Shown in pieces: positions 4,357 to 54,536 of a stretch of 64,000 nt of DNA (the first letter of the stretch is position 1; every line of letters begins with the position of its first letter). The stretch covers positions 87,356 through 151,355 of the forward strand of contig RSEH01000104.1 in assembly GCA_006503475.1 (NCBI GenBank). Direction: 5' to 3'. Made by a program: the position numbers and the translations under genes. The notes under the pieces were generated by a model. The model did not search any database and was not told the origin of the DNA. It saw only the letters and a program-made list of their open reading frames with translations. This DNA is from Stentor roeselii. Its lineage: Eukaryota; Ciliophora; Heterotrichea; Heterotrichida; Stentoridae.

Positions 4357-5080
4357 TTTTATGAACTTGCTACAATGGAATATTCAAAGATTTTATTACT
4401 TTTCTGGAAAGTATTAGGATATTAAGAATCTCTATATTAAAAATAATTCAGTTTCAACAAAAAATACAAGAGATTTGATTTTCAGTTAAAGAATTTTTAG
4501 GAAATTTAGAAATGTATCAAAAGATTAATTTTGTAGTTATGATGATTTCCAGATTTAAAGTATTCAATGGGTTAATCATCAAATAGCGCCAAAAGATTAA
4601 ATTGAGAAAAGAAAATGTTTTCGTTTAGAACTTGGGTTCAAAATCTCAATTTAATGAATAGTTTTTAAAAAATATTGAATTGTTTCAATTTGGCAATTAT
4701 CTTATATTTCTTTAAGATTTTGTTTAGAATTATTCCATAGAGAAATAGTGTTTTCTGATTAAAATCTTATAACTTAAAGATAGTTAGTAAATCAAGGTGA
4801 GTTCAATTGAATTTACTATAAAATTATAGATTCGATAAAGAGAGAAGTTGAAATTTGCATAAATTCAAAAGTTTCGATAAAGACAGGTCAAGGGCTTGAA
4901 CCTGGGCATCTACAAATCAATACAAACAAAATTCATCCTTATTATATAAAAACCCATTTTACAAGAGGTCAGGTTATCACGTGCAATAAAACCTGATAAA
5001 GCTATTCAATAGAGACTTAAATATTGAAAATTTTCTCTAAACTCATTCAACTTGAAGAAAATTAAGAATTTAAGTAAAAT
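4357..5080. other. AT-rich spacer between the two zinc-finger genes
   Basis: No coding frame or repeat is supported in these 724 bases. It presumably holds the promoter of copy 1 and the 3' end of copy 2. A short GC-richer patch near 4885-4915 looked tRNA-like at first sight but does not fold as one. Confidence 0.55.
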
Positions 5081-5398
5081 TTAATTCTCTTTATTGAGAG
5101 CTTTGCTTAAGTCCTGATAAGATTCGAACATATGAGACCTTTTATGTCTCACAAGCATGCACTTGTTCCTAAATCGCTTTCCGCATGTACATGCGAAAGG
5201 CTTGACTTTCATATGAATATACTTGTGCTCTTTCAAGTTATCAATACTCACGAATTCTCTTCCGCAGATCTGGCATTTCCCTGCTTTAGTCTTGAGGTGA
5301 TTGATCTTATAATGTCTGACCAGATTGTATTTTGACTTGTATTCCTTTAAACATCCGTTGTAGGCACAACAGAAGATCTGAATGTTGAATGATTCCAT
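5081..5398 (-). CDS. Three-finger C2H2 zinc-finger protein, copy 2
   Basis: This 105-residue paralog of the gene at 4027-4356 has the same architecture. Finger 1 begins CCAYNGCLKEY and ends HYKINH, finger 2 begins CQICGREF and ends HKYIH, and finger 3 is CTCGKRF ending HKRSH. Finger 3 has only one residue between its two cysteines (C-T-C) where copy 1 and the family have two or more, so zinc binding by that finger is doubtful. The DNA reading there is unambiguous. The start is the ATG at 5398. A role as a small DNA-binding protein is inferred from the family. Confidence 0.8.
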   Translation of the reverse strand: MESFNIQIFCCAYNGCLKEYKSKYNLVRHYKINHLKTKAGKCQICGREFVSIDNLKEHKYIHMKVKPFACTCGKRFRNKCMLVRHKRSHMFESYQDLSKALNKEN

Positions 5399-5778
5399 TA
5401 CCTGATAGATTTAGTTTTATAAGCAAATAATTTCATTAAGATTACTATTTAGGGGAAATACTGGGAAATACTGTCCACAATTTGTCTCGTTGTGGATTTA
5501 GGTTTACGATGTTTTCTGCTAAGAATATACGAAAATTAATTAAAAAAACAAGAAATAGGTGAAGTAAAGAACACCACTGGTGTTTTTATTGAATTTTAGA
5601 AAGTTAAAATGCCTATTCTAGATATTTCTTAAAAAAGTTAGTTTTGTAAATTATTTAAATATATTCTTTAAACTAAATACTTTGTAAATTGAAAATTCTT
5701 CAAAGAAGGTATAGAGAAGAATCGATTGTTTCTTTGAATATAAAATGAATTATAAAAAGTTTTAAACAAATATTTTCT
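5399..5778. other. AT-rich spacer downstream of the first peroxidase
   Basis: This 380-bp spacer separates zinc-finger copy 2 from the peroxidase 3' end. Nothing coding is seen. It contains a short direct repeat of GGGAAATACT near 5451-5471. Confidence 0.5.
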
Positions 5779-5826
5779 AATCATTCTCCAGGTTTAGCAT
5801 AATTTTTGAAAAACCTTTCACTTGAT
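5779..5826 (-). promoter_or_regulatory. Candidate SECIS element of peroxidase gene 1
   Basis: Twelve bases after the TAA stop the transcript reads GUGA at 5821-5818, then an AGGUUU/AAACCU helix, an A-rich apical loop beginning AAAAA, and GGAGA at 5789-5785. Outside this core, AAUCA pairs with UGAUU to form a basal helix. This fits the SECIS plan of a UGA/GA quartet with adenosines in the apical loop, which recruits selenocysteine insertion factors. The element after peroxidase gene 2 has the same order, the same GUGA and GGAGA, and the same 12-base distance from its stop codon. Confidence 0.7.
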
Positions 5827-5833
5827 TATTGTT

Positions 5834-6340
5834 TTATAACAGTTCTTGAATCCTTTCACTCAAACTTAAAGGCCAAACTTTTGGTTCGAAGTACTCGATT
5901 TTTTCTGCATCTCGACTGACTAGAAACTTTCCAAAGTTCCAAGTTATCCTATTTCCACTCAAGCTGCTTTTTTCCTTGAGAAACTTGAAAAGTTCTGATA
6001 TTTCCTTACCATTTACATTCACTTTTGAATAAACCGGGAAAGGGACTTGAAGACTTTTTACATAATTTTGGATTTCTTCATCTGTTCCTGGCTCTTGACC
6101 ACCGAACTGATTACAAGGAAAGGCCAAGATTTGAAATCCTTTAGGACTGAGAAGATGATGCATTTGGATGAGTTCTGAGTACGATCTTTGAGTTTTTCCT
6201 CATTTGGATGCCACATTAGTGATAAGCAAAACTTTTCCAATGAATGAAGAAAGTTGTTTCTGCTCACTATTGGCGAGTTTTAGCTGAATATTATAAAAAC
6301 TTGAAATACATCTGCCTAAAGCCTCGGCAGATCTTATCAT
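5834..6340 (-). CDS. Selenocysteine glutathione peroxidase 1 (TGA = Sec47)
   Basis: The frame runs from the ATG at 6340 (in-frame TAA just upstream) to TAA at 5834, 168 residues, with one internal TGA at 6202-6200. That TGA falls at the catalytic residue of the family: NVASK-TGA-GKTQRSYSEL corresponds to NVAS-x-(Cys/Sec)-G. The other catalytic residues are present: Gln in NQFGGQEPG and Trp-Asn in TWNFGKF. The N-terminus SSFYNIQL is also typical. The enzyme would reduce hydrogen peroxide or lipid peroxides using glutathione or thioredoxin. No organellar targeting signal is obvious. A SECIS candidate follows the stop, so the TGA is read as selenocysteine and not as a break. A second copy lies 198 bp upstream on the same strand. 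Confidence 0.9.
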
Positions 6341-6481
6341 TAATTATATTAAAGAATTCATTAATATTAAAAATGATCTAATTTATTCCAAACTAAAATT
6401 GCTTAAAAATCATTAAATCAATGAAAACCCATCAAATTCCTCTAAAATAAGAAAAAAAAAATCCAACAACTAAACTTAAAT

Positions 6482-6538
6482 AACATTAATTCTCCAGTCT
6501 TGCCCTAGTTTGAACAAGACCATCACTCGAATATTGTC
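6482..6538 (-). promoter_or_regulatory. Candidate SECIS element of peroxidase gene 2
   Basis: Twelve bases after the TAA stop the transcript has GUGA at 6526-6523, then an 11-pair helix (UGGUCUUGUUC with GGGCAAGACUG, including G-U pairs), an apical loop starting AAA, and GGAGA at 6495-6491. A basal helix of ACAAUAUU with AAUUAAUGU flanks it. The quartet and the AAA loop are the diagnostic parts of eukaryotic SECIS elements, with GUGA in place of the commoner AUGA. The placement matches the element after gene 1. Confidence 0.75.
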
Positions 6539-7039
6539 TTATAAAATTTTCCTGATTTTATCCTTGATATCCAAAGGCATGACAGTGGGTCCGAAGTACT
6601 CAACTGACTTTTCTTCTCTTCCAATAAGAAACTTTCCAAAATTCCATCCGATACTTGATCCCTTCAGTGAACTATTGACTCTCAAGTACTTAAAAAGTTC
6701 GCAGGCATTATTTCCATTAACTTCAACCTTTGAAAATACAGGGAAATTCCCTCCTTTTTGCCTTACAAAGTTTAAAATTTCTTCATCTTTTCCAGGCTCC
6801 TGATTCATGAACTGGTTGCAAGGAAATGCAAGGATTTGAAAACCTTTTGACTCGAATTCTTTTTCTAGTTGGATAAAATCTGAGTAAGAACGGTTGGTTA
6901 GACCTCAGTGAGATGCGACGTTTGTTATCAGCATCACTTTTTCTGAATATGTTTTAAGTAATGAGGTACCTCCTCCGATTTGGATTACTGGAATCGTGTA
7001 GATTGACTTGAAGGAAGTCGAGCATCGCGCCCCTCCCAT
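6539..7039 (-). CDS. Selenocysteine glutathione peroxidase 2 (TGA = Sec45)
   Basis: The frame runs from the ATG at 7039 to TAA at 6539, 166 residues, with one internal TGA at 6907-6905. It lies in NVASH-TGA-GLTNRSYSDF, exactly where this family has catalytic selenocysteine or cysteine. Gln in NQEPG and Trp-Asn in GWNFGKF complete the active site. The N-terminus differs from gene 1 and lacks the usual SFY motif, so substrate or location may differ. It is a tandem paralog of gene 1, with its own SECIS candidate between the two genes. Its spacer to the next gene is long and AT-rich. Peroxide detoxification is inferred from the family. Confidence 0.88.
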
Positions 7040-7689
7040 TATTATTTAAGGAATTACTGAAGTTTTACTGAATATTTAGAATTTTTAGGAAAGATGAGAG
7101 TTGTTGAGGATAATTTAGGAAAATAGTTTTGGATTGATAGATTCAGAATTTTATTTTTTATTATTAGAATTTGAGTGATTTCATATGTTTAGTTCTAAAG
7201 ATATTTCTTAAGGTAAAAAAATTATATTTCTCTTCTACTAAATGGGTGAAAATAGGCAGAAGTAATTCAATTATTCTGAAATATAAATCATCTGGTTTGT
7301 ATAAAAAATCAAGAATTCTGAAAGGGATACTTTAGTTTAAATAATATTGTATTGTAAATCAATAGATTAAATTTATGAGGCATGTAGACTGATAAACATT
7401 CTTTTTCTTCTTGAGAATTTAACCCTTACTCAATTTAGAAACTATTGCATACCTAACCAAAAGCAGGATTGTCAATCAAGTCCTAAGCATCTCAAATATA
7501 AAAAAAAAACATAAATTCTAATAAACCATTCTAAATCTAAACCTCAAACAAATCCAAACTATCCCAAACTAAACCTTAAAACAATCATCCTTTAAATCCA
7601 AAAAAACCTCTAAACATCCAAAATCCTCCAAAAATCCAAATCCAAACATTCCCAAAACTTAAAATCCCAAAGGCTTAAACCCTATTAAA
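7040..7689. other. Divergent spacer with G-depleted leader
   Basis: This 650-bp spacer separates divergent genes. From about 7497 to 7689 the plus strand is C/A-rich and almost free of G (two Gs in about 190 bases), ending directly at the START-gene ATG. The same kind of strand-biased leader precedes the RNF213-like gene and the second START gene. No coding frame is supported. Confidence 0.6.
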
Positions 7690-8295
7690 ATGGAAGGCCA
7701 GTATCATAGTGAAGCTGAAAGAGTCGCTGAAAGTTCAATCAACGACTTCCTCTCCCTCCTATCCCGAACGGACTGGGACGACCTCGGAGAGCGTGACGGT
7801 GTCCACGGTTTCCAGAAGAGCATTGACGGTCGAACGACAATAAAAGCCTTCGGAGTTTTAGAATTTCCAGCAGAGAGCATTTGCAACTATTTACTTGACA
7901 ACAGCAACAAAAAGAACTGGGACAAGATGTTGATAGAGTCAAAAATTTTACATAATTTTGGAAATGTTCGAATTATTCACGAGTCTTTCTCAGCTCCTTG
8001 GCCTGTCAGCGGGCGAGACTTCGTCTTCGCCTTGAAGTGGATGGACCGCGGGGAGGACATTTTGATGGTCGCCAAGAGCATCGACATCGGAGTCGCTGTG
8101 CCCAGAGGAGTCGTCAGGGGAGAAGTGCTCAACAGCGGCTTTCTTATTAAAAAACTCACACCGACCTCCAGTGAAGTCACTTATTCAGTCTGCATCGACT
8201 TGAAAGGAATGATTCCTAATATGCTTGTCAATCAGATGGCAAAAAATCAAGTTGGAAATCTTGCGAAAATCAAAAAAGCTATGCAAAGGTCTTAG
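7690..8295 (+). CDS. START-domain lipid-binding protein, copy 1
   Basis: The 201-residue protein is essentially one START domain. Family features seen are the KAFGVLEFPAESICNYL region, a NWDKM segment, the SAPWPVSGRDFVF segment (START proteins typically have P-hydrophobic-x-RDF), and the C-terminal helix MAKNQVGNLAKIKKAM. START proteins bind a lipid or sterol in a hydrophobic pocket. There is no signal peptide or membrane segment, so a soluble lipid-transfer or sensing role is inferred. A close paralog lies at 53919-54536 and shares most of the sequence. A small gene follows 114 bp downstream, and a decayed copy of that neighbour also follows the paralog. Confidence 0.85.
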   Translation: MEGQYHSEAERVAESSINDFLSLLSRTDWDDLGERDGVHGFQKSIDGRTTIKAFGVLEFPAESICNYLLDNSNKKNWDKMLIESKILHNFGNVRIIHESFSAPWPVSGRDFVFALKWMDRGEDILMVAKSIDIGVAVPRGVVRGEVLNSGFLIKKLTPTSSEVTYSVCIDLKGMIPNMLVNQMAKNQVGNLAKIKKAMQRS

Positions 8296-28831: not shown

Positions 28832-30181
28832 TTACCTTGAAATAAGTGACTGTCTCTTCCTTCTCGAAATAATGAAATACCTAACAACACTGAAAACGAT
28901 TCCAAGTAGAATAAATAAAGAAATGATCAACAAAAGAATAGCCCATGTAGGAAAGCCTTGGCCGACATAGTCTCCAGAGGAAAAGTCGCATCCTTCTTGA
29001 TAAGTATAGTCATCCACATCGGCTGCCCAGAGGTAAAAATTCGCATCTCCATTAACAGGGTTCTCATAATTTATCGCTCCAGCGACAAAGTTTTGAAGTT
29101 GATTGCACATCGCTAAAAGTTGCCTTTTTTGGTTATTGAATCCCAGAGTGTCTGGCCATACAGCTTTGTCATCACTGATCACATGATGAAAATCAGCGTA
29201 GTGGAAATCTGTTGGATTCGGGTTTATGTCATTCACCTTCAAGACTCCGTTTAATTCAATCGCTGTTATGTAAAGTCGTCCTTTAGCACCTGAGAGAAGT
29301 CCATCACTTGCTGACTTTTTATAACCTAACTTGACAGCTTTGTTTGAAATGTCTTTGTTATTTTTAGCTTCTCTTAGATATTTGGTTTCTATCGCGTATA
29401 AAGTCCTACTGGTCAGAGGGGTGTAATAAAGAATTCTTCTATCACAAGACAATGCGATTCCATCGACTCCTGTTTGCATTGGATTGTTTTCATTGACTCT
29501 TTTGCCGTTTATAACAATCCATAATGTTGGGTCTGGAATGGTGGATGGCTTGAGAGTCATAGTTCTCCAGATTTCATTTGTATTCAAGTCGATCACAATG
29601 AAACCAGGGTACCGATACCCAGAGTCCGAGATATAAATAAAATCGTTTTCAGTGTCGATAACCAGGTCATTCAAAAACGAGTACTCAGGATGTATCGGGT
29701 CAATAAACTTTTCAAGGTTCCATGACATGAGAAGCTCTCCAGTTATTTTATATTTATTCAACTTGGCAGACCCAGGGACATAGCTTCCATTAATAAGACC
29801 CTGATCCAAAGCCCAGATATTATCATGCTTGTCTATTTCAAACCCTAACACTGCCTGCAATGCTGAAGGGTCATACGCCTTGTTCCCTTCAAAACTAGGA
29901 AAAGGCTGAAAAAGGCCGATGTTATCCTTTGAGTTAATCAAAACGTTTAAAGTGGCTGGAACGTCATTCCACCATCTGGGAATACTCACAAAAATCGTTC
30001 CATTCGATGAGACTTTCACACCTGCTGGCATGCAACTGTGGTAATGTTTGTTTAGGTTGTAGGTATTCCAATCTGAGGGATTTTGGAATGTGAAGTTGAT
30101 CCATTTCATTTTGTGCAAGATGTGCTGGTTGTAAGATGCAGATGCCCCTAGAAATGTTAACAAAAAGAAAATAGTCGCCAT
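28832..30181 (-). CDS. Yellow/major-royal-jelly-family membrane protein
   Basis: The 449-residue protein has an N-terminal signal peptide (hydrophobic residues 1-16) and a long Yellow/MRJP-type beta-propeller. Family features seen are GNKAYDPSALQAVLGFEID, the NIWALDQGLING segment, FLNDLVIDTENDFIYISDSG and GVDGIALSCDRRILYYTPL. A C-terminal transmembrane helix (about 406-433) is followed by a basic tail (RRKRQ), so most of the protein should face outside or a vesicle lumen. Yellow proteins bind small molecules or act in pigment pathways in insects; their role in ciliates is unknown. It follows the phosphatase gene by 13 bp. Confidence 0.85.
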   Translation of the reverse strand: MATIFFLLTFLGASASYNQHILHKMKWINFTFQNPSDWNTYNLNKHYHSCMPAGVKVSSNGTIFVSIPRWWNDVPATLNVLINSKDNIGLFQPFPSFEGNKAYDPSALQAVLGFEIDKHDNIWALDQGLINGSYVPGSAKLNKYKITGELLMSWNLEKFIDPIHPEYSFLNDLVIDTENDFIYISDSGYRYPGFIVIDLNTNEIWRTMTLKPSTIPDPTLWIVINGKRVNENNPMQTGVDGIALSCDRRILYYTPLTSRTLYAIETKYLREAKNNKDISNKAVKLGYKKSASDGLLSGAKGRLYITAIELNGVLKVNDINPNPTDFHYADFHHVISDDKAVWPDTLGFNNQKRQLLAMCNQLQNFVAGAINYENPVNGDANFYLWAADVDDYTYQEGCDFSSGDYVGQGFPTWAILLLIISLFILLGIVFSVVRYFIISRRKRQSLISR

Positions 30182-35655: not shown

Positions 35656-38600
35656 ATGAGTGATCAATATCAAAGAAGCTTACCCAAATCCGATCTAGAA
35701 AAAATCACCTCTTTGAAATATGAAGAACTCCAGAAAGTCAGCGCAGCATGTTTCAAAGCAACTCAAAAATACCATCATTTATTCCAAGTCAGCCTAAGCT
35801 GGGAAGACGCTTTTCTATTGACATTACTCGGAGATTATTCCGGTTACGACGTCTCCTTGCTCAATTTTTTCAGAAACTCAAGAACTCTCTCAGAAGTGAG
35901 CCCGATATGGGACGTAAGTCTAAGCACAAGAGCCAGTGACTTTATCAGAAATCAAAACGAAAAATATTCTTACATTTACTTCATCCTTGACTTGATAAAA
36001 GGAAGATTTCAAATGACTTACGAGTCTGACTTTTACCTTTTAATCAACTCTTCACTTGCTCCCAGTAATGAACTTTGTGGACTGGTTTTAATTGAGACTT
36101 ACCCGGAATTCGCTTTGAAGATCTTAGTGAGTCTTTTTAAGGAAGATGAAGTGAACAATTCAATTAACCAGTTTTGCTCGGTTGATAGAAATATCAGTAA
36201 ATTTAAGAATGTTGAATTTGAAGGAAGATATTTTCAAGTCTCGCAAGATTCGCTTATGATTCATTATCCTGGATCGATTTGTGGAATGAGAGATTTGATG
36301 AGGGTTTCTAGCTTTCAGGGAAATGGGGGATTATTTGGAAATATATCAGGTGATGTTAAAGAGAAAAATGAAGCTCCAGATGTGATTGTTATTCCAGCCA
36401 AGCAGTCGCAGGATGAGTGGGTCCAGCCAGGTGAGGACTACGGAAACCCTTATTTTAAGAACCTTCATGAAAAAAGGCAATATTTGGACCCAGGTCTTCC
36501 TTTTACACCTTTAGATGAAGTAGAAAATCAGTTCAGTGAGGATTTGATCAACTTCAAGTATAACTTGATGAAAAATAATCGTGAAAAGTATCTGAGGTCT
36601 GTGGGACTTGGTAGAAGGGATTTGACTACTTGGACCAACTTGTTGGTTGACTGGCATATGAGAGACTTCAGTGGGCAGATTGGAAAATACGATATTTATG
36701 AGAACTCTGGACTTTTATGGAGAATTTCTATTGGCGGGGAACTGCTGAGTGTACTTAAACAAATTGATGAAAATGAATTTATCCATTATTTCACATTGTT
36801 TATACGATTTGGACTTGGTTTCGTCATTCAAGATGTTGAGATGTTTTACCTTATTAATGAAAAAGCTAATGATGACTTCATTTTTTCTATTGTGCCTTTG
36901 AATGGAACTAACCTCAAGTCAGTATTAGTCGCTCTGTACGTCGAATTTGATGAAAAACAGAACTTTTCATATAAAATCAACTTTTCTGACTTCTGCAATG
37001 ACCAAGACCTGCTTCAAAAAATCGACAGTATCAGAAAAGAGTCGTCATATGTGAAAATTTTTCAAAATTTCGGAAAACAAGGAATGAAATCTCTTGTTTT
37101 AATTCAAAAAAACCAGAAAATCATTCCAGTGATGAACTTAAACACGATAAAACCTTCATCAAAGAAGAAAAACATCCACTTTTTATACAGTCTGATGAAA
37201 TCTCAGGCAGATGCCAACATCCTCCTTCAAGATAGCAATAAAAGGAACCATTATTCAACCAAGGTTAAGCTAAACAACGAATTTCAAAATGAAGCTGTTT
37301 ATTTATTTACTTTTTCTGTTGAAATCCCAGAAAAGAGCGAATACTTGATTCAGATGAGCATCAACCTCGAAAAGCGAAACATTCAGTACTATGAAAATTT
37401 GACTGAAAAAAGAACGATTCCTGAAAGTCCAGATTCATTTTTATTTAATGTTGAATTCAAGAAACACGCTAAGGACTTTTCAAAAGAACAACCTCCTGGA
37501 AAGCCATTAAAAGACATATTTGCCCAGTTTTTTTATTACTTAAGTTTCATCAGGCAAAATTCAAGAGAGGACCTTTTTGAGTATCTTGTCAATTCTTTTG
37601 TTTCAGTCTGTGTAAAGCTGAAGGAGAACTTTTCAAAAGATTTTCAATTTTACGTTTTACAAGAAGTAGACCGTGAGTTCGAAGTGATTTCAAATGACAA
37701 CTTAGAAAGATTTTACTGTCTTTTATGCATTTTATCAGTAACTGAAGCTTATCCTATTGAAATGAATTTAAATGACAACAGTCTCAAGAAATTGATTGAA
37801 ATAATCACCTCAAGTAACGGGAAGTACCTGATAGTCCTTCGGCCGAAGACTCATTTCGATTCAGCTGTCAAGGGAATAGTGAAGTCTTTTTTCGTCTTGA
37901 AAAATAAAGGATTAGACTTCAGGTACTTATTCGACAATTTTTATGATTATAACTATTTGAGGGTCGCACTGAAGACTTATCTCGAGCTTCATAAAGAAAG
38001 AAACTTGAAAGTTGACCAAAATGACTTCGACTGTATTTTGACTTACTCTCAGTTATTCACTCATAAGCAAACTGAAATGCTTTTGAAGTACATCATTGAG
38101 ATGATCAAAGAACCATTGAGGCTACTTGCTTTGTTTTCTCATAATTGCTTTCTTAATAAGCCGCTTAGTGAAAAACAGAAAGCTTTGAATGAGTCGATTA
38201 AGTCGTTCAGGCCGAATATTTCTGATTTAATTGAGTTTTTGAGGACTGTTAAAGAAAAATACTCTTTTAATCATTTAATTGATATTAGAGAAGTTTCGAA
38301 AATGATTGAGGAAGTTTTGATGAATAAGGAAAGTATTACCAGGCAGAATCTTTCGAAAATTAAGGAAATTTTTGAGTTTCTTATTTCTGAGAATAATGTT
38401 TTTCAAATTGATATGAAGTTAAAGGCGAATAATTTGATGAACTTCTTTACTTTTAGTGAGTGTTTACCTGTTTTTTCCTTGATTCCGAATGATATTCCTG
38501 AACTTTTTCAGAGCTGGATGAGTCGATCTGCCTTTTCAATCACTAACAAGCAAGCTCTTCAACAAATAGAGAAAGAATTCGAGTCAATCCCCAAAAAATT

Positions 38601-41600
38601 CCAAGATACTCTCGCCCCTCTAGTCCTAACAAAGATAAATCACACTAAACTATTTGAAATGATTGAAAACATGGACTCCCTAAGATCAATATCATTAAAA
38701 AATGCTTATAAATCCTCATTTCGTGATCATTTTTTCCACAAATCAGTCTACGAATCCACAATAAGCAAACTTTTCAGTAGCCGTAATAAAAAAAAGTTAA
38801 AAAATTGCACAATATACAAGGAAATCTGCATCGAAGCCCAATCTCTCATTTGTCCTTCAGAGGAAGAAATGATTCAAAGAATCCTAAAAAGCCCGAATGA
38901 AAACGATTTGCTTTTTAGTTTTATTCGTGACAAAGAAGCCGTAGAAGACTCAGAAGTAGTTCAAAAAGTTCAACTTTTCATAAAAAATTTCTGTGAAGAA
39001 ATTGAAACCAATTCGATGCCTGTCACGAAATTCGCATTGTTAGAAAATCATTCAGAAATAGAAAGATCAGTTTTTTATGAATATTTACAGACAACAATAG
39101 ACAACTCTGGAAAATATGAAGTTTTTTTAGATTTTTTCACAGAAACTGAAAAAAAGTATAAAGAAACAACGAATTTTTTAAGGTTTATGAAGAAATTTGT
39201 GCTTATTTTTGTTTTTGATTTTCCAGAATTAGCTCCAGTTATTGACGTGTATCAAGAAATAGAAGCGAAATATGAATATTCTACAATAAGCGATTTGAAT
39301 ATGCCAATAGAATTAGATAACTTGAGTAATTTACTTTCAAGTTATCAACTTCCTTACAAGTCAATGTTTTACTCTCGGTTCATGAAGCTGATTGCAGCAG
39401 GTTATCAAGGAAACTTTGAATCATGCATGATTGAAACTCTTCAGCATTGCAATAACTTCATCGTGACAATGCTTGACATCAATTCAAACAAAACCACGAC
39501 AGTCGAGCACATTCACAGTTGGTTCCTTTACATAGAGAACTTTGCAAGACTATCAAAAGAAATGATTTTATTTCGAAAGTATTTCCCTCAGTACTTAGAG
39601 GACCAACTATTCACTTTAGAAAAAAAAATAACTGAAGTCTACTCAAAAGTGAATAATTTTTACTCTTTAAAACCTTTGATCAAGTCAATCAGCCTTTCTT
39701 TCAAATTACTCGGATTTTCATCAAACCCTCTGGGAAAATACTCAATACTCGACGAGATGAATTATTCAGGAGAAGCTGCAAATCTTCTCTCATCTCTTTT
39801 AAAAGAAGAAATCAGCAGTTTAAGTCTAAAAGTTATCGAAAATGCGAATATTTTCATACAAACTGCTGAAGAAAACGCGAATCTCGTTATACTTGCAGGG
39901 ACTCTTGAAGAAGATGACCTGAGTTACTGGAGAGAAAGTTTTATTTCGAATATGGATAATAATGGACTTACCTTAGAAATTCTAGAGAAGTTCATTTCGA
40001 TCAGTTCTTTTTTAAATAAACTTAAGAATTACCTAAAGAAATTCAAAGGTTTTTGTGAAAGAATTGCAAGTCTCATGACTTCTCCTCAGCATTTAACGAT
40101 TATTGAAGATTTAGGCGAATGTGGAAAGAATTTCAACTCACTTGATAATTACAACAAATCTTTGAATAACCAGGAACAAATTAAGTTAAACAAGATTAAA
40201 ATGATTAGCAATGACTCAAAAATTATTATTAAGAAATGTGTTGATGGCTTTCAAGTTGAACTTCTTACTGTCAGGCTCGACCAAGGGTACACTTTAAAAG
40301 GACTGGACTTAAGAGAACTGAAAGAACTCAGAGATCGGGCATTGCTGAGTAAGTACATCATTGATAATAAAAAAGAAAATCAAGCTGAAAACCAAAAGCA
40401 AGACTTGATGATTTATAATAACTTCGTGGAATTCGTGAACTCACTTTGCAGGTTTATCGAGACTTTGAATAAACTAAACAACACCCTGTTCAGAGACACC
40501 CTGTTCACCAGTCATGAGTATTTCATTAAAAACCATGATTACCGAGTCTTGAACTTAGAAGCTCTTCAATATTTGACACTTTTCACAGATCACTGGAAAA
40601 AGTACTTCAAAGCGATAAGTAAAATCAGTTACATTGCGAATTATTTAAATGGAGAAAATATTTACAAAATTGACCAGTTCGTGTTTTGCAGAAGTCAAGT
40701 TAACTTAAATGCAATAACTTCTCTTTTAAAGTACATGCAAAGAGCGCCTCCTCAGGCAACTGGCCAAAGGTTCAAAGTTCCTGAATCAATGATGCAGAGA
40801 TTAAATATCATTGAGGACTTCTTAGAAGGCTTGAGTTATGAGTACCTAATTCCGAAGTTTCCATTGGAAAAAGTGATTCAACTTCCTCAGATCCCTGGGT
40901 CGATTTTAATTGTGGAAACTAAAGAGTTTTATGTAGGGGTACTCACAGTCTACTCGCTTTATAGAAAAATAGTCCCTAGAGGAGACCTGGTCTTTTTCTG
41001 TCACTTTTTCACAGGTTGGGATGAAATCAAGTTATTTTTAAATCGATGCTTTTTAAATGGAAATCAAGAAATTTACACCCTGATAAACCCTGAAAACCTT
41101 TCATTTGACAGCCAGGTGAAACTTGAATCGAAAATTCATCGGCAGTTTTCTTTAAAAAACTACAGTTTTTATCTGGCAATTGTCACAAATGACCCAGGGT
41201 GCAAGTTGGTGTCAAACCTTAACACCCAGTATTTTATTCCAGTGGAAAAAATTCAGCAATATCAAATTCTCGAAGATTCAGAGATAAAAAAATTCGTTTC
41301 AAGTCTTTCTCAAAGAATAGTTGTGGTTAAGTCTTCATATGCAGGACTTGGGAAGTCAACTTATATTTCAAAGGAATGTGGGAAAAAAAGATGTAAAATT
41401 TATGAATACAACATTTCTGCTACTTTTAGTATTGAAGACTTATATGAAAGTATTGAAAAGTTCATTCATATTAATGATATTATTTTTAAGTTCAACTTGA
41501 ACTACTTGTCTGAACCTCAGTTTTTCAATGAATTAATTTTTTCTTTAGCGTTGTTTTCATGCAGTGGTTCAGGTAAGTCAATGATATCCCTTCCCCAAAA

Positions 41601-44600
41601 CTCAATGATTTACATAGAAGTAGCCAACACATTCAACGACCATTTATTCAAAAGTGTATCTTTTCTGAAGTTCTTAAAAATCATAGAAATCACTTCTTTC
41701 ACATTAGAAAATTTGAAATTTACCAAAGAAATAAACTACGTCTGTAAATATCTCCAAGCTTTAACCGACTCATCAATAAACAAGGTTGATTTAAAACACT
41801 CGAAAATAGAAAAAATCGATAAAACATTGAAAAAAACCTTTTTAAGTATTTTGAAGAAGTTTTTCATGCCTATCTGTGGAGAAAATCCGAATTTCCATCA
41901 ATTAAACACATTTGTAAGAGTCCTGTCGAAAATGTTCCAAAACTTCGAAAAAAGCATGTTTTCAGCAGAAATCATGACAAGCCAACACCTGGAATACCAA
42001 CACTACGGCATCGACATCTTCAAAAACCTCAGATCATGCATAATGGAAAATCTTATCGAGACCGCAAAAGAATTCACCTCCAGATGTTTCGACAGTGTCA
42101 GAAAAGGCCAAAATTCAATGATTTCTCGAATAGAAAACGAAAACGCTGAAGAAATCGTTGTGATTGACTGCAGCATAAAATGGGAAAATTCGAATCACTT
42201 TATCATGGTCTTCATGCAAGAAGGAGACTTCATGAACATCTACCGATCTGCAGAAAAAGTCCCGATAAACATCAAAAAGTTCATCATCAGTCAAAAAATC
42301 ATTGAAGACCTTATTTCAGGAAAAACTCAAAATTTCAAAGAACGTTGGGCTAATTGTTTAAAAGGAGTCGGGGAAATCGAAGACTTCAACAAGTACTCAA
42401 GTCAGGAACTCATGGAAAAACTTCTTGGGTTCTACTCGAGGTACTCTTTAAGAAGTGATAATGAAGGCAGTTTAGATGTAAGACAATTAAAACAAACTCG
42501 ACTTATTGACTTAGTTTCGACTGGATATATTTTGACTCCTGATAATTTCTTGAAAATGAATCTTATCTTCATTCGTTGCATTTCTAATATTCCACTTATT
42601 ATCATGGGAGAAACTGGATGTGGAAAAACTTCATTGTTAAGGTTTTTTGTGGAGAATATTTTACAGGAGAAATTAATGATTATTTATATTCACTCTGGAG
42701 TAACAAGCAAAGATATCACGAAATTGCTGCTTGATGCAAATGTAGAAGCTGAAAAAACTAGTAAAGAAAGGGTTTGGGTCTTTTTTGATGAGTTTAATAC
42801 AAGTGAGATGATCGGAGAAATCGTCTCGATTTTGTGTGAAAAACGTTCGAAAGTGAAAATTAACCCGAAAGTTGTCTTTATCGGAGCTTGCAATCCTTTT
42901 AGAGTGAAAAAATCAGTCAAATTCAAGGAAAACGTCGGAATTCAGAAGAAAAATGGATTGGAAAGCAAAGTTCAACTGGTGCATATTGTGAAACTTTTGC
43001 CTGATAAAGCGATTGAGTTTGTATGGGACTTTGGAGTGCTTCGGGCAGAGGAGATTCGAAATTATGTTAAAAATATGCTGGCGAAAGTTGAGATGAAAAA
43101 AATTGAAATGTTTGTTGATTTGGTCTGCACTGCTCATGAGTACTTTCAAAACTCAGAGGATGTTAGTAGTGTCAGTCTTCGAGATGTCAATAGATTCACA
43201 TTGCTTTATGAATGGTTTAGAGACTCCCTTGAAGCTAGAAGATGTTTGAAGATTGAGAAGCCTTTGAATGAGTATCATCATTATTTAGACTATTTCAACA
43301 AGCTAAAAAGCAAAGAAGTCTACCCAGGCCTTCTTGCTTTTTTTCACTCCTACTTCCTAAGAATTTCCGACCTAAACGATCGTATTCAATTCATGGAAAT
43401 CATCATAACCCATGCTAAAATGTTCGACTCTACCCTCTCCATTGAAATGCTTGAAAGTCTAATAAGACTCGAGCAACTCGAAATGATGAGCCGAATGAAT
43501 TTACCAGAAGAAATCGCTTTAAACCAAGCCTTAATGGAAAACATTTTCGCAATAATTCCCTGCATCTTAAACAAAATCCCTATTTTCATCTGCGGCAAGC
43601 CAGGTTGCAGTAAAAGTTTAGCAATTCAAATAATCTCTTCAAGTATGAGAGGAGAAAAAAGTTCAGACCCTTACTTTTTGACACTTCCCGAGCTTCACAT
43701 CGTTTCTTTCCAAGGTTCCGACTCCTGCACCAGTGAAGGAATTGAAGAAGTTTTCAGCGTAGCTGAAAAAATCCAGTTACAGAAAAAAGACGTTTTTCCC
43801 GTCGTTCTTTTTGATGAAATCGGCCTCGCTGAGGTTTCGAAGTACAACCCGCTGAAGATTTTACATAAATTACTTGAATATGAGAATTGTAAAGTGGGAT
43901 TTATTGCGATTTCTAATTGGAGACTTGATGCTTCTAAGATGAACAGAGCTTTGTATCTCGCAAGGCCTGACCCTGATGAAAAGGACTTGATTGAAACTGC
44001 TAAGACTCTTTTTCAGAGCTTTAGAAAAATGGATGACTCGAAGCAGTATTTAGGAATTGTTGAAAAAATAGCGAAAGGGTATTTTGCTTTTAAAGAATTT
44101 ATGAAAAAGTTGGATTTTCCTGATTTTTATGGACTTAGAGATTTTTATCATACTTTGAAGATGATTTCGAAGAAAATTCATGACAATTATAAAGATGATT
44201 TGCATTTAATACTTCAAGAAGCGATTTTAAGGAATTTTAATGGCCTGGAAGGAGCTGCCGAGATTTTACCTGAGTTTTTTAAGGAAGCTTTTTCAGGTTT
44301 GAGACTAAAAACCACGTCTACTATGCTCATGATTAAAAATTTAGAAGAACAGAAGAGTCGGTATCTGATGATTATTTGTGCCCAAGATGTTTCTGAATAC
44401 TTAAAATCAGCTATTATTGAATATTACTTCGACGATTTTCGCTTTTTAATTGGAAGTACTTTTGAAAACGATGTCAATCATGAATCTTCTAGATTTCGAA
44501 TATTATCTGATATTATTGGGTACATGGAACAAGGTGTTCCCATAGTTCTTCAAAATATGGACATTATTTACACTTCTCTTTACGATCTTTTTAATCAAAA

Positions 44601-47600
44601 TTTCACGGTTCTTGGAAAAACTCGGAAATATTGCAGAGTTGCTTTAGGTGCTCATTTCAACCCTCGTTGTTTTGTGCATGATAAGTTTAAAGCTGTTGTA
44701 TTTCTAGATAATGATAAAGATGTGATTCAGGCAACTGATGCACCTTTTTTAAATCGTTTCGAAAAGCATTACATTTTATTAAAAGACCTGATTGAAACTC
44801 GATACTTAGAAATTTCTAATCAAATCACTGAGTGGGTAAAAGAAATTTTGAAAATCAAGGGAAAAGCCAACAGACTGAAACCTGTTTCGATTTTTCCTTG
44901 TTACAGTGAAGAGACCATTAACCTGATGATCCAAATGATGGAAGATGAAGATTCAGGAGTAATCATTGAAAAATGTCAGAGGTTTTTACTTAAAAACTCC
45001 AGTTGTGATGTAGTTTTTTTAGCAAAAGTCAACTCAATGGATCCAACTCTTATGCGCGGGATCGTTCAGCAGTGGAATCACTACCATTCTTTAAACTTCA
45101 CCACATATCTCTCAAAACTTTGCAACAGTCCCAGATATTTATCAAAAGGAAAAAGAGTTCGCTTAATCTGCACTACTTTTGAAAGCCAATCAATAGACTC
45201 ACTAAGAGAAGAGTTGAGTCAATTTGTCCAATTCGAAAAATGCTGCAATTTTCGCTCAGAAGAAGAACTTAAGATGAGTTATGATAAGTTTTTATCAGAC
45301 CCTCAGAAAGTGTTGTACCTTTTTGAACTTGACTATCAAAAAGAAGGAAAACATTTCAGATTCGTTGTAAGTTTTCTTGAAACCATTGACAAAAACACGA
45401 ATTTCGAAAATAAACAAATTGTAAAAAATGTTTGTCTTCTAGTCCGAATCCAAAGAAACGACTTGGAAAGAAAAGCGATTCTTTTGTTCAAAGGATGGCG
45501 ATACCGGATGTTTGATGACCTGTGGATGCACCCTGAACAATTAGAAATGATGATGAACTATGACCTGGTTTCAATTATAAAAAGCAAGAACTTTTACGAC
45601 TTTTCAGGAAAATACGAAGAAATAACTCAAACAGCTTTTGATACTATTTACTTCCAATCTCCTCTTCATTCATTTGAACAACTACAACAAGTGAAAAAGT
45701 CTTTAATCGAATATTTTTGTAAAGAGAGGTCATTTAGCCAGCTCATTGAAGCGAAAATCATTGAAACCCTTAACCAAGCCGAACAAGGGTCGAAGGTGAC
45801 GTGGATAATGCAACTTTTTACAAGTGAAAACGTGATAAACTCTGCTAGATCAATTAAAAACGCTTTAGACATCCATATTTCTGAAAGATTTCTTTTAGAA
45901 TACACGAAACTTCTAATTGCTTGTGAGAAAAAGTCAGGACTTGGCTCAGTGTTAAAAACTAAATCACATGAAACGATTTTAAACATCTGGAAAGACGTTT
46001 TTCGAAGACTTCAAACGAAAAACGTGCAGGTTCACTTGAAAGCGAGTAGCAATCATTTGAATTACTTGACAGAACTTTGGCTTCCTTTCATTTATGAGGA
46101 CTATAAAGCACTTAAAGCGAAATTTCAAGAACTTGTTAAGACTGGAGAAGAAGAAAAAGTCGCTTCAGAGCTGAAATTGTTCCATTTGCAAAAAACTCTC
46201 TGGCAGGGAAAAGGGAATTTATTTTACGATAATCCAATAATTTCCAGTTATTTCATCTTAGACTTCATCGAAATCTCACTAATTGAAAGAAACGTGGAAA
46301 AAAGGCACACAACTCATATTTTTAAAATCATTGAACGAATACTTTCAGGCAGTGACGAAAGAATCAAAGAACTATTCAAACAACAGCAAATTATCTTCAA
46401 TTTAAATGAAATCATTTCAATTTTCACTGAATATTCCACATCTCAGAACCTTGACTGGATTTTCAACTCCTTTTCCGAAATTCCTGAATTAAAAGACCAA
46501 GAAATCAAAGCAATGTTTGAAAAAATCATTGAAGACATTTCTCCTCTCGGTGAAAAATTCTCAGAAAAAAAGGACCTTAGAGAGTATTCAGAAAGTATCA
46601 GAAAGGTCCGAGACCATCTTGCTTCCTTTCCCAAACCTGAGAACTTCGGAAAACTTGAGTTTTGGTCAGAGATTTGCAGACTTGGAGATAAAACTTTAGT
46701 ATTAGACATCGCTTGTGACTTACTCGGGGAAAGCCACGAGTTTCTGTTTTCTAATCAAATGGCTGATAAAATCATCAGAAGTCTCGTGAATCGACGTGAT
46801 CTTCCAACATCAGCAGCTTATAAGTTCAAGATCTTTTATTACAATCAACTATTGCAGTTTAATCCTCTTATGATTCCTTCTATTGCTGATGAAATCAGGG
46901 TGAAAGATGCTTGGAAAGTCTCTGGGCCTTTAATTGAAACACTGTTAAAATCCTCTGAACTCAAAGAAAAACTTGAAGAGTTTGAATGTGAAGACTTAGA
47001 AATTGAAGGTTTTTTAAAAGTCTTTGAATCTGAAAATTTACATCTTCGGATCTTAGGCGATTTTTTGAGTAGCTGTCAATTAATCGATCCTTTTTGTATT
47101 TTATTTTCAGATAAACTAAAACTGTTGGACTTCAAAGTCACTTCAAGAAGACAGGGTGTTAAAAACTTCAAAGTTTATTTAGACGCTTTTGAAAGATTTT
47201 CTCAGGATAATGACCAGCTCAAGGCTTTGGTGGCCAGTGCGAGGGTCAAGTTTTATCTGAATCAATTCGTCGTCGCTCTCAATCCGAGTCGCAAGGACTT
47301 GAAGGTCAATGAAGAAGCAACGATTCAAGATTTCGGAAAAGTTTTAATTGGCAGGAAAAATTTGGTTTATGAACTTTATTGCTTGAAACTACTGAAAAGT
47401 GTCGCTGGGGTCAGTACTTTGAAGTTGAATGAGTTATGTTCACAGACGAAGTATAAGTGGAATATTAACTACAAGGATATCGGAGTTAAAAGCACTTTTG
47501 ATGTTTTTCCTTTTTTAGAAGAATTTAGTCTTGAGTATAAAGCTTGTGTCATTAAGATCTGTGCACTTGTTGATAATATCAAAGAGTTAGATGAAATCAT

Positions 47601-53918: not shown

Positions 53919-54536
53919 ATGGAAGATCAATATCGTTATGAAGCAGAAAAAATCGCTGAAACTTCAATCAATGACTTCCTCTCCCTTCTCACTCGAATCG
54001 ACTGGGACTACCTTGGAGAGCATGACGGAGTCCAGGGTTTTCAAACGATAATCGAGGGTCGAACAACCTTAAAAGCCTTCGGAGTTTTCGAGTTTCCAGC
54101 AGTGAGTATCTGTAACTACTTACTGGAGAACAGGAACAAAAAGAACTGGAAAAAAATGCTGATCGAGTCGAAGATTTTGCATGATTTTGGAGATGTTCGA
54201 ATTATTTATGAGTCGTTCTTAGCTCCATGGTCAACCTGCAGTCGAGACTTCGTGTTTTCAATGAAGTCTGTGGACAGGGGCGAGGATATCTTGATTGCCG
54301 CCAAGAGCATCGATATTGGAGTGCCTGTTTCGAGTCGAGTCATCAGAGGAGAAGTCATCAACAGCGGGTTTCTTATTAAAAAAGTCACAACAACTTCAAG
54401 TGAAGTCACTTATTCTGTCTGTGTCGACTTGAAGGAAATTATTCCGAACATGTTACTAAATCAGATGGCAAAAAACCAACTTTCATATTTCGCTCAAATT
54501 AAAAAAGCCATGCAAGGTTCTTTTATTATTGGATAG
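53919..54536 (+). CDS. START-domain lipid-binding protein, copy 2
   Basis: The 205-residue protein aligns end to end with copy 1 at 7690-8295: both start ME-x-QY, share INDFLSLL, KAFGV, NKKNW, the RDFVF segment, AKSIDIGV and the C-terminal IKKAM. The domain is intact with no frame breaks, so it may be functional, although its surroundings are decayed. It ends nine residues later than the shared IKKAM motif with GSFIIG. The preceding 130 bases contain no G on the plus strand, like the leader of copy 1. Confidence 0.85.
   Translation: MEDQYRYEAEKIAETSINDFLSLLTRIDWDYLGEHDGVQGFQTIIEGRTTLKAFGVFEFPAVSICNYLLENRNKKNWKKMLIESKILHDFGDVRIIYESFLAPWSTCSRDFVFSMKSVDRGEDILIAAKSIDIGVPVSSRVIRGEVINSGFLIKKVTTTSSEVTYSVCVDLKEIIPNMLLNQMAKNQLSYFAQIKKAMQGSFIIG

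Follow-up and report, generated by a model that had tools for sequence, protein, structure and literature searches.

The window, the whole stretch of 64,000 nucleotides analyzed here (G000:C9:87356-151355, in a genome of 44.4 Mb and 522 contigs), carries two adjacent genes on its minus strand, gene 2 followed by gene 1 after a gap of 198 bp, which encode proteins 49% identical to each other (Table 1). Each gene has a single in-frame TGA, in the contexts NVASH-TGA-GLTNRSY and NVASK-TGA-GKTQRSY. On the 3′ side of the TGA both genes encode FPCNQF, containing the catalytic Gln, and WNFGKF, containing the catalytic Trp-Asn; with U standing for the TGA codon, the catalytic tetrad U/Q/W/N is complete in both. 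Coordinates and translations confirm the first-pass annotation, which had placed one TGA at the catalytic residue of each of two neighboring genes, with the glutathione peroxidase (GPx) sequence conserved on either side. Its estimate that standard gene callers would lose about 45 N-terminal residues was close, the actual counts ahead of the TGA being 46 and 44; the standard-code mechanical ORFs of the pair begin at the next ATG and are 109 and 89 aa long. With the TGA read through, the Pfam GSHPx model (PF00255) matches both genes at 113 bits (E ~6e-33, cut-off 27), the gene 1 query having begun at 6289, i.e., minus the first 17 residues. This domain match supports the identification of both genes as selenocysteine (Sec)-type GPxs, whose activity would be glutathione-dependent peroxide reduction. 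By sequence they fall in the same fold family as vertebrate GPX4 (PDB 2obi, 7l8k; aligned residues 12-159 of 166), although among natural PDB entries a plant GPx (2p5q) rather than vertebrate GPX4 matches best.

Table 1. Predicted features of the tandem GPx locus; positions are those of the window.
Feature	Position	Strand	Remarks
Gene 2, predicted Sec-type glutathione peroxidase CDS	6539..7039	minus	166 aa, TAA stop
Gene 2, in-frame TGA (putative Sec codon) at catalytic residue	6905..6907	minus	
Gene 2, candidate SECIS element	6483..6536, core GUGA...GGAG 6492-6526	minus	12 nt past stop
Gene 1, predicted Sec-type glutathione peroxidase CDS	5834..6340	minus	168 aa, TAA stop
Gene 1, in-frame TGA (putative Sec codon) at catalytic residue	6200..6202	minus	
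Gene 1, candidate SECIS element	5778..5831, core GUGA...GGAG 5786-5821	minus	12 nt past stop; fold weaker than in gene 2

For one window protein (28832-30181), the closest named relatives come from Stentor coeruleus, at 48%, and Blepharisma stoltei, at 47%, which fits the heterotrich assignment made at first pass and indicates a species other than S. coeruleus; the same protein matches a JGI metagenome protein at 99% over 89%. The window uses the standard genetic code, as does S. coeruleus according to passages of two papers (PMC9505925, PMC10553269). A 4869-codon ORF (35656-50265) has no stop inside under this code, and 24 chosen mechanical window ORFs end in TAG (11), TAA (9), or TGA (4). 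The long window ORFs are also free of internal TGA, as the first-pass annotation had stated for the other genes of the window. These observations bear on the reading of TGA as a cysteine codon, as in Euplotes, under which the two genes would encode Cys-peroxidases. Cys-type GPxs do have Cys at the TGA site, as does a relative, P0003, discussed below, but the cysteine reading is at odds with the use of TGA as a stop, and TGA at ordinary Cys positions, the mark of a euplotid code, was found in none of the sampled long window ORFs or the three MsrA matches. The internal TGAs of other genes examined occupy classical Sec sites (KGUGC in SPS2, GCUG in thioredoxin reductase, TrxR) and are followed by SECIS elements, and a tRNA-Sec(UCA) is present. 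We regard a cysteine codon as highly improbable.

A search for the Sec machinery, proposed at first pass as a check, found tRNA-Sec, SepSecS, a Sec-type SPS2, and eEFSec in the same genome. The tRNA-Sec on contig C186 scores 64 bits (cut-off 47), has the anticodon TCA, and is called tRNA-SeC (tca) by ARAGORN; the next four matches to the model, all below the cut-off, are tRNA-Ser and tRNA-Leu. SepSecS (C76, 388 bits) contains one internal TAG that we take to be a small intron. SPS2 (C377, 220 bits) has one TGA, at KG-TGA-GC, and eEFSec (C441, 89.6 bits) possesses both eEFSec-specific Pfam domains. An SBP2-like binder would be expected to act with this machinery, and a weak candidate for it, in a 310-aa frame on C49, is the lowest-scoring (28.8 bits) of nine L7Ae matches; for PSTK, a search with the KTI12 model turned up a single match, apparently KTI12 itself. 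The 3′ part of SPS2 with its SECIS element is found twice in near-identical form, at the gene itself (L046) and at the end of contig C281 (L081), the second copy being either a duplicate or an assembly overlap.

A Pfam search of the genome scored ten GPx candidates, nine of which were kept. All nine, distributed over five contigs, have one internal TGA, in every case at the catalytic residue, and there is no Cys-GPx among them. They form four neighboring pairs (on C60, C310, C9, and C15) and a single gene (C12). If the genes were pseudogenes or products of assembly error, with TGA a nonsense mutation, the same codon would not be expected at the same place in every copy, nor a covarying element behind each, although one of the nine (L015) does carry a frameshift. 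For the closest pair, L013/L014, the dN/dS figures are 0.18/1.97 before the TGA and 0.14/1.38 after it, whereas in many other GPx pairs dS is saturated or could not be computed; that dN is much lower than dS before as well as after the codon argues that both halves are translated. A nonsense mutation is, in our judgment, scarcely credible. L015 (C60) has a Sec codon and SECIS element, its frameshift lies farther on, and this copy is a pseudogene or contains an assembly error. The L013/L014 tandem pair (C15) keeps the Sec codon and SECIS element, carries Leu where the catalytic Trp would be (KIGLNFGKF), and shows a CxU arrangement (ACKU).

In a tree of 20 proteins, from which L015 was left out and in which 9 of 17 inner branches are without resolution, window gene 2 groups with the metagenome protein P0001 (99/94) rather than with its neighbor, gene 1, and the window pair therefore seems to be old. 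Among the GPxs of this genome, only the C15 pair are mutual nearest neighbors (100/99). P0001 is the closest database GPx (69%) and shows W at the catalytic place, which would suit TGA as a tryptophan codon, as reported for Condylostoma; we read this W as the output of a code-4 pipeline for a TGA. With Trp as the catalytic residue, nine enzymes would lose their thiol/selenol chemistry, and the absence of TGA inside the other long window ORFs, together with its use as the end of some ORFs, also stands against a tryptophan codon, which we find exceedingly improbable. A related GPx, P0003, comes from transcriptome MMETSP1397, presumably that of Climacostomum, and has Cys at the catalytic place, so Sec is not universal among related GPxs. 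The prefix given for MMETSP1397 in the relevant passage of PMC4967479 is 'climav'. Six of the nine GPx paralogs (L007, L008, L009, L011, L014, and window gene 2) start with Met-Gly and have a nearby Cys (MGGAKSSC, MGCCCTC, MGNCLCCC, and the like). This is the pattern of N-myristoylation and palmitoylation and suggests that these paralogs may be lipid anchored, possibly as membrane-anchored lipid peroxidases.

Behind each GPx stop codon lies an element, missing from the first-pass annotation, with the consensus GUGA-N10-12-AAA-N13-15-(G/U)GAG, the GUGA being 12 nt from the stop in seven of nine genes and 13 nt in two. The stop-to-GUGA spacing elsewhere is 12 nt in SPS2 and 16, 23, and 35 nt, respectively, in the SelW-like, SelS-like, and TrxR genes described below. 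The UGA and GA of the non-Watson-Crick quartet are present in all 14 elements, as is an AAA 10-12 nt past the quartet, inside the eukaryotic SECIS rule (AA at 10-13 nt). AAA and K are 13-15 nt apart; counted between the first AA and GA, the spacing is 15-17 nt, among the shortest that the rule (15-39 nt) allows. All 14 elements have GUGA, not AUGA, and so lack the A before the quartet; in the form of the rule that uses NTGA, as given in part of PMC2375036, this A is not required. The quartet GA pairs, the spacing of 10-12 nt, and the AA at the apex agree with that published rule. Besides the two elements in Table 1, the core pattern occurs once more in the window, again on the minus strand (6904-6937), inside gene 2 and overlapping its Sec codon, probably by chance. 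TAA ends all 13 Sec genes whose stop was read, compared with 9 of the 24 chosen window ORFs; a need to avoid TGA next to a SECIS would account for this only in part, and nine of the 13 are paralogs.

In the predicted folds, the quartet region is open and separates a lower helix from an upper one of ~10 bp. The apical loop is 6 nt in gene 2, TrxR, the SelW-like gene, L008, and L015, and the tops are looser in gene 1, SPS2, and the SelS-like gene. Fold energies are −15.2 kcal/mol for gene 2, −9.7 for gene 1, −10.8 for SPS2, and −18.7 for TrxR, against a SECISearch filter that requires a whole-structure energy of −12.6 kcal/mol or lower, according to part of PMC2375036. Relative to shuffled sequences, the z-scores are −3.5 (TrxR), −2.1 (gene 2), −1.2 (L008), −1.0 (gene 1), and −0.7 (SPS2), and 37 of 200 shuffles fold as well as the gene 1 element. 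Rfam SECIS models gave no match in window positions 5001-7700 at E values up to 5, where three weak non-SECIS matches were obtained. Folding energy alone is a weak witness; covariation is a strong one.

Across the nine GPx elements, standard pairs occupy 80.7% of pair cells, and 13 of 15 pairs vary on both sides. The covariation score is 0.698, compared with 0.290 for shuffles and at most 0.243 for slid structures. The structure counted (alignment A3) takes its register from the fold of gene 2, itself one of the counted sequences. An initial register on alignment A1 was rejected as wrong: it gave 68.3% paired, and a slide of +1 gave 65.3% with a slightly higher covariation score. In a set comprising the nine GPx elements and the SPS2 element, none picked by fold, arms pair at 7.0 of 8 positions with their own partner and at 4.9 of 8 when swapped, and 1 of 50,000 permutations equals the observed value. 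The GPx elements are related to one another, and the covariation and swap controls therefore overstate independence. A model trained on seven GPx elements (R1) scored the two held-out GPx elements at 24.7 bits and 16.8 bits (E 0.21), with a spurious match between them at 18.5 bits. Applied to non-GPx loci (65 kb, 10 matches), all of which except SPS2 had been chosen beforehand by pattern and fold, R1 placed TrxR, the SelS-like gene, the SelW-like gene, a locus on C100, and the two SPS2 copies in the top six (38.4 to 20.0 bits); the next match scored 16.9.

The same element recurs behind unrelated Sec genes. That of SPS2 was seen at the 3′ end of a gene located through a family search, and for this reason it is free of selection by pattern. 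Pattern search combined with fold ranking led to three new Sec genes with the element: a TrxR, a SelW-like gene, and a SelS-like gene. The TrxR ends GC-TGA-G-TAA and aligns with mammalian TrxR1 through the last residue. The SelW-like protein has CGGU, a CxxU motif, and the SelS-like protein has a single membrane segment and a GG-TGA-GG end; the two names are our assumption from family features, namely the CxxU motif in one case and the membrane segment with the GGUGG end in the other. Pfam and NCBIfam gave no supporting match for either protein, and none of the nine Rdx matches in the genome contains a TGA or coincides with the SelW-like locus.

The core pattern alone is not specific, one search giving 132 hits and its reversed control 84, and another 68 and 31, respectively; the 132-hit pattern misses two of the nine GPx elements, both on C60. 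Taking 100 of the 132 as listed and the remainder of the 68, there are 163 distinct hits, and a simple arm fold puts 26 of them below −1.5 kcal/mol. Six GPx elements and one SPS2 element, already known, are among these 26, leaving 19 others. Fourteen of the 19 were inspected by eye and comprise the three new Sec genes, one SPS2 3′-end copy, the C100 locus, and nine without a recognizable Sec gene; the five outside the inspected set are on C146, C10, C134, C80, and C476. The C100 locus (L087, G000:C100, ~67901-67939, minus strand) has a SECIS-like element with a good helix, preceded by a short frame, ...ERHG-TGA-GSAGDLDLKT-TAA, in which the in-frame TGA is 45 nt and the stop 12 nt before the GUGA. 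This short frame is possibly a further selenoprotein candidate.

The agreement with the published rule, the strong covariation, and the recurrence behind unrelated Sec genes weigh against Sec being inserted under the direction of a true SECIS that lies elsewhere than the stem-loop next to the stop. That arrangement would account for the blindness of the Rfam models to the stem-loop, for a core of GUGA and KGAG instead of AUGA and KGAW, and for the weakness of some folds; we consider it very unlikely. The selenocysteine reading of both TGAs made at first pass is supported by the machinery genes and by the covarying SECIS-like element behind each GPx. With high confidence, we interpret gene 1 and gene 2 as GPX4-like Sec peroxidases, in which UGA would be decoded by tRNA-Sec(UCA) brought by eEFSec, and Sec insertion would be directed by a Type I-like SECIS of compact form within a very short 3′ UTR. 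In the transcript, this element would presumably form a lower helix, a GUGA/(G/U)GAG quartet, an upper helix of ~10 bp, and, at the apex, a small loop whose first nucleotides are AAA in the cleanest folds, with the core starting 12 nt past the TAA.

Sec-containing GPxs in a heterotrich are not new per se. The consulted passages of a 2020 survey (PMC7409322) report Sec in all seven S. coeruleus GPxs, none of eleven ciliate Sec-GPxs with a detectable SECIS, and no tRNA-Sec found in S. coeruleus. The present genome is like S. coeruleus in that every family member has the Sec codon (seven isoforms there, nine matches here), and differs from what those passages report in that both SECIS elements and tRNA-Sec were found, in another species. 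GUGA cores are also already known from the portion of PMC3473315 on green algae and sponges, where GUGA_AA SECIS elements share the G before the quartet and the AA in the apical loop; the present elements are distinguished from those described there by GUGA in 14 of 14, a short apical part, and a position 12-35 nt past the stop in the 13 whose stop was read. The Euplotes crassus elements in the passages seen of PMC3737529 are likewise ciliate Type I SECIS elements in rather short 3′ UTRs, but UGA there also encodes Cys, and the TrxR stop-to-core distance is 124-138 nt compared with 35 nt here.

Condylostoma and Parduczia, as described in passages of PMC4967479, resemble the present case in having tRNA-Sec(UCA) and a Sec codon very near the SECIS, although their codes also read UGA as Trp, whereas the standard code is used here. 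Those passages already report tiny heterotrich 3′ UTRs (median 21-23 nt), short UGA-SECIS distances in Condylostoma, and TrxRs of both genera that break the minimum UGA-SECIS distance rule; they give no SECIS consensus, GPx SECIS, or constant stop spacing. In the present genome, the distance from the Sec UGA to the GUGA is 41 nt in TrxR, 32 nt in the SelS-like gene, and 378 nt in each window gene. A minimum of 51-111 nt for Dio1 is quoted in parts of PMC3316567 and PMC3737529. Short 3′ UTRs are also plausible in the window, where convergent predicted ORFs are separated by gaps of 16 and 23 nt at two places; at two others the gaps are 513 and 1268 nt.

The new part is the stop-adjacent GUGA SECIS. 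The literature searched, with most subscription papers outside it, yielded no report of a SECIS whose distance from the stop is a near-constant 12 nt. An element of this kind is a candidate explanation for the missing SECIS of the S. coeruleus GPxs. A position nearly against the real stop may explain why such signals are hard to find in ciliates. They may also have been missed because of the G at the start, the KGAG end versus the KGAW quoted in part of PMC7409322, the short length, and energies that for some lie above the −12.6 kcal/mol of the filter (PMC2375036, as cited above). We propose, tentatively and as something a little short of probable, a heterotrich class of stop-anchored SECIS whose quartet is placed just beyond the front of the terminating ribosome, and which would account for the missing Stentor GPx SECIS. 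The Condylostoma terminating footprint ends 11/12 nt past the UAA in the passage seen of PMC4967479; if the proposal is true, the quartet at 12 or 13 nt past the TAA (nine GPxs and SPS2) would stand immediately beyond such an edge, and the shortest possible 3′ UTR would still hold a folded SECIS. It would also mean that a SECIS works at the UGA-core distances of the TrxR and SelS-like genes, below the 51-nt mammalian Dio1 minimum, adding natural cases nearer than the reported minimum. The simple hypothesis offered is that the limit is imposed by the terminating ribosome's edge, and the consensus and position provide a concrete means of finding heterotrich SECIS elements and hence selenoproteins.

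Elsewhere in the window, START-like genes at 7690-8295 and 53919-54536, ~46 kb apart, look alike by eye, the Pfam search having covered the first only. The ORF at 35656-50265 has AAA and RZ-type zinc finger domains by Pfam, and we take it to resemble RNF213.
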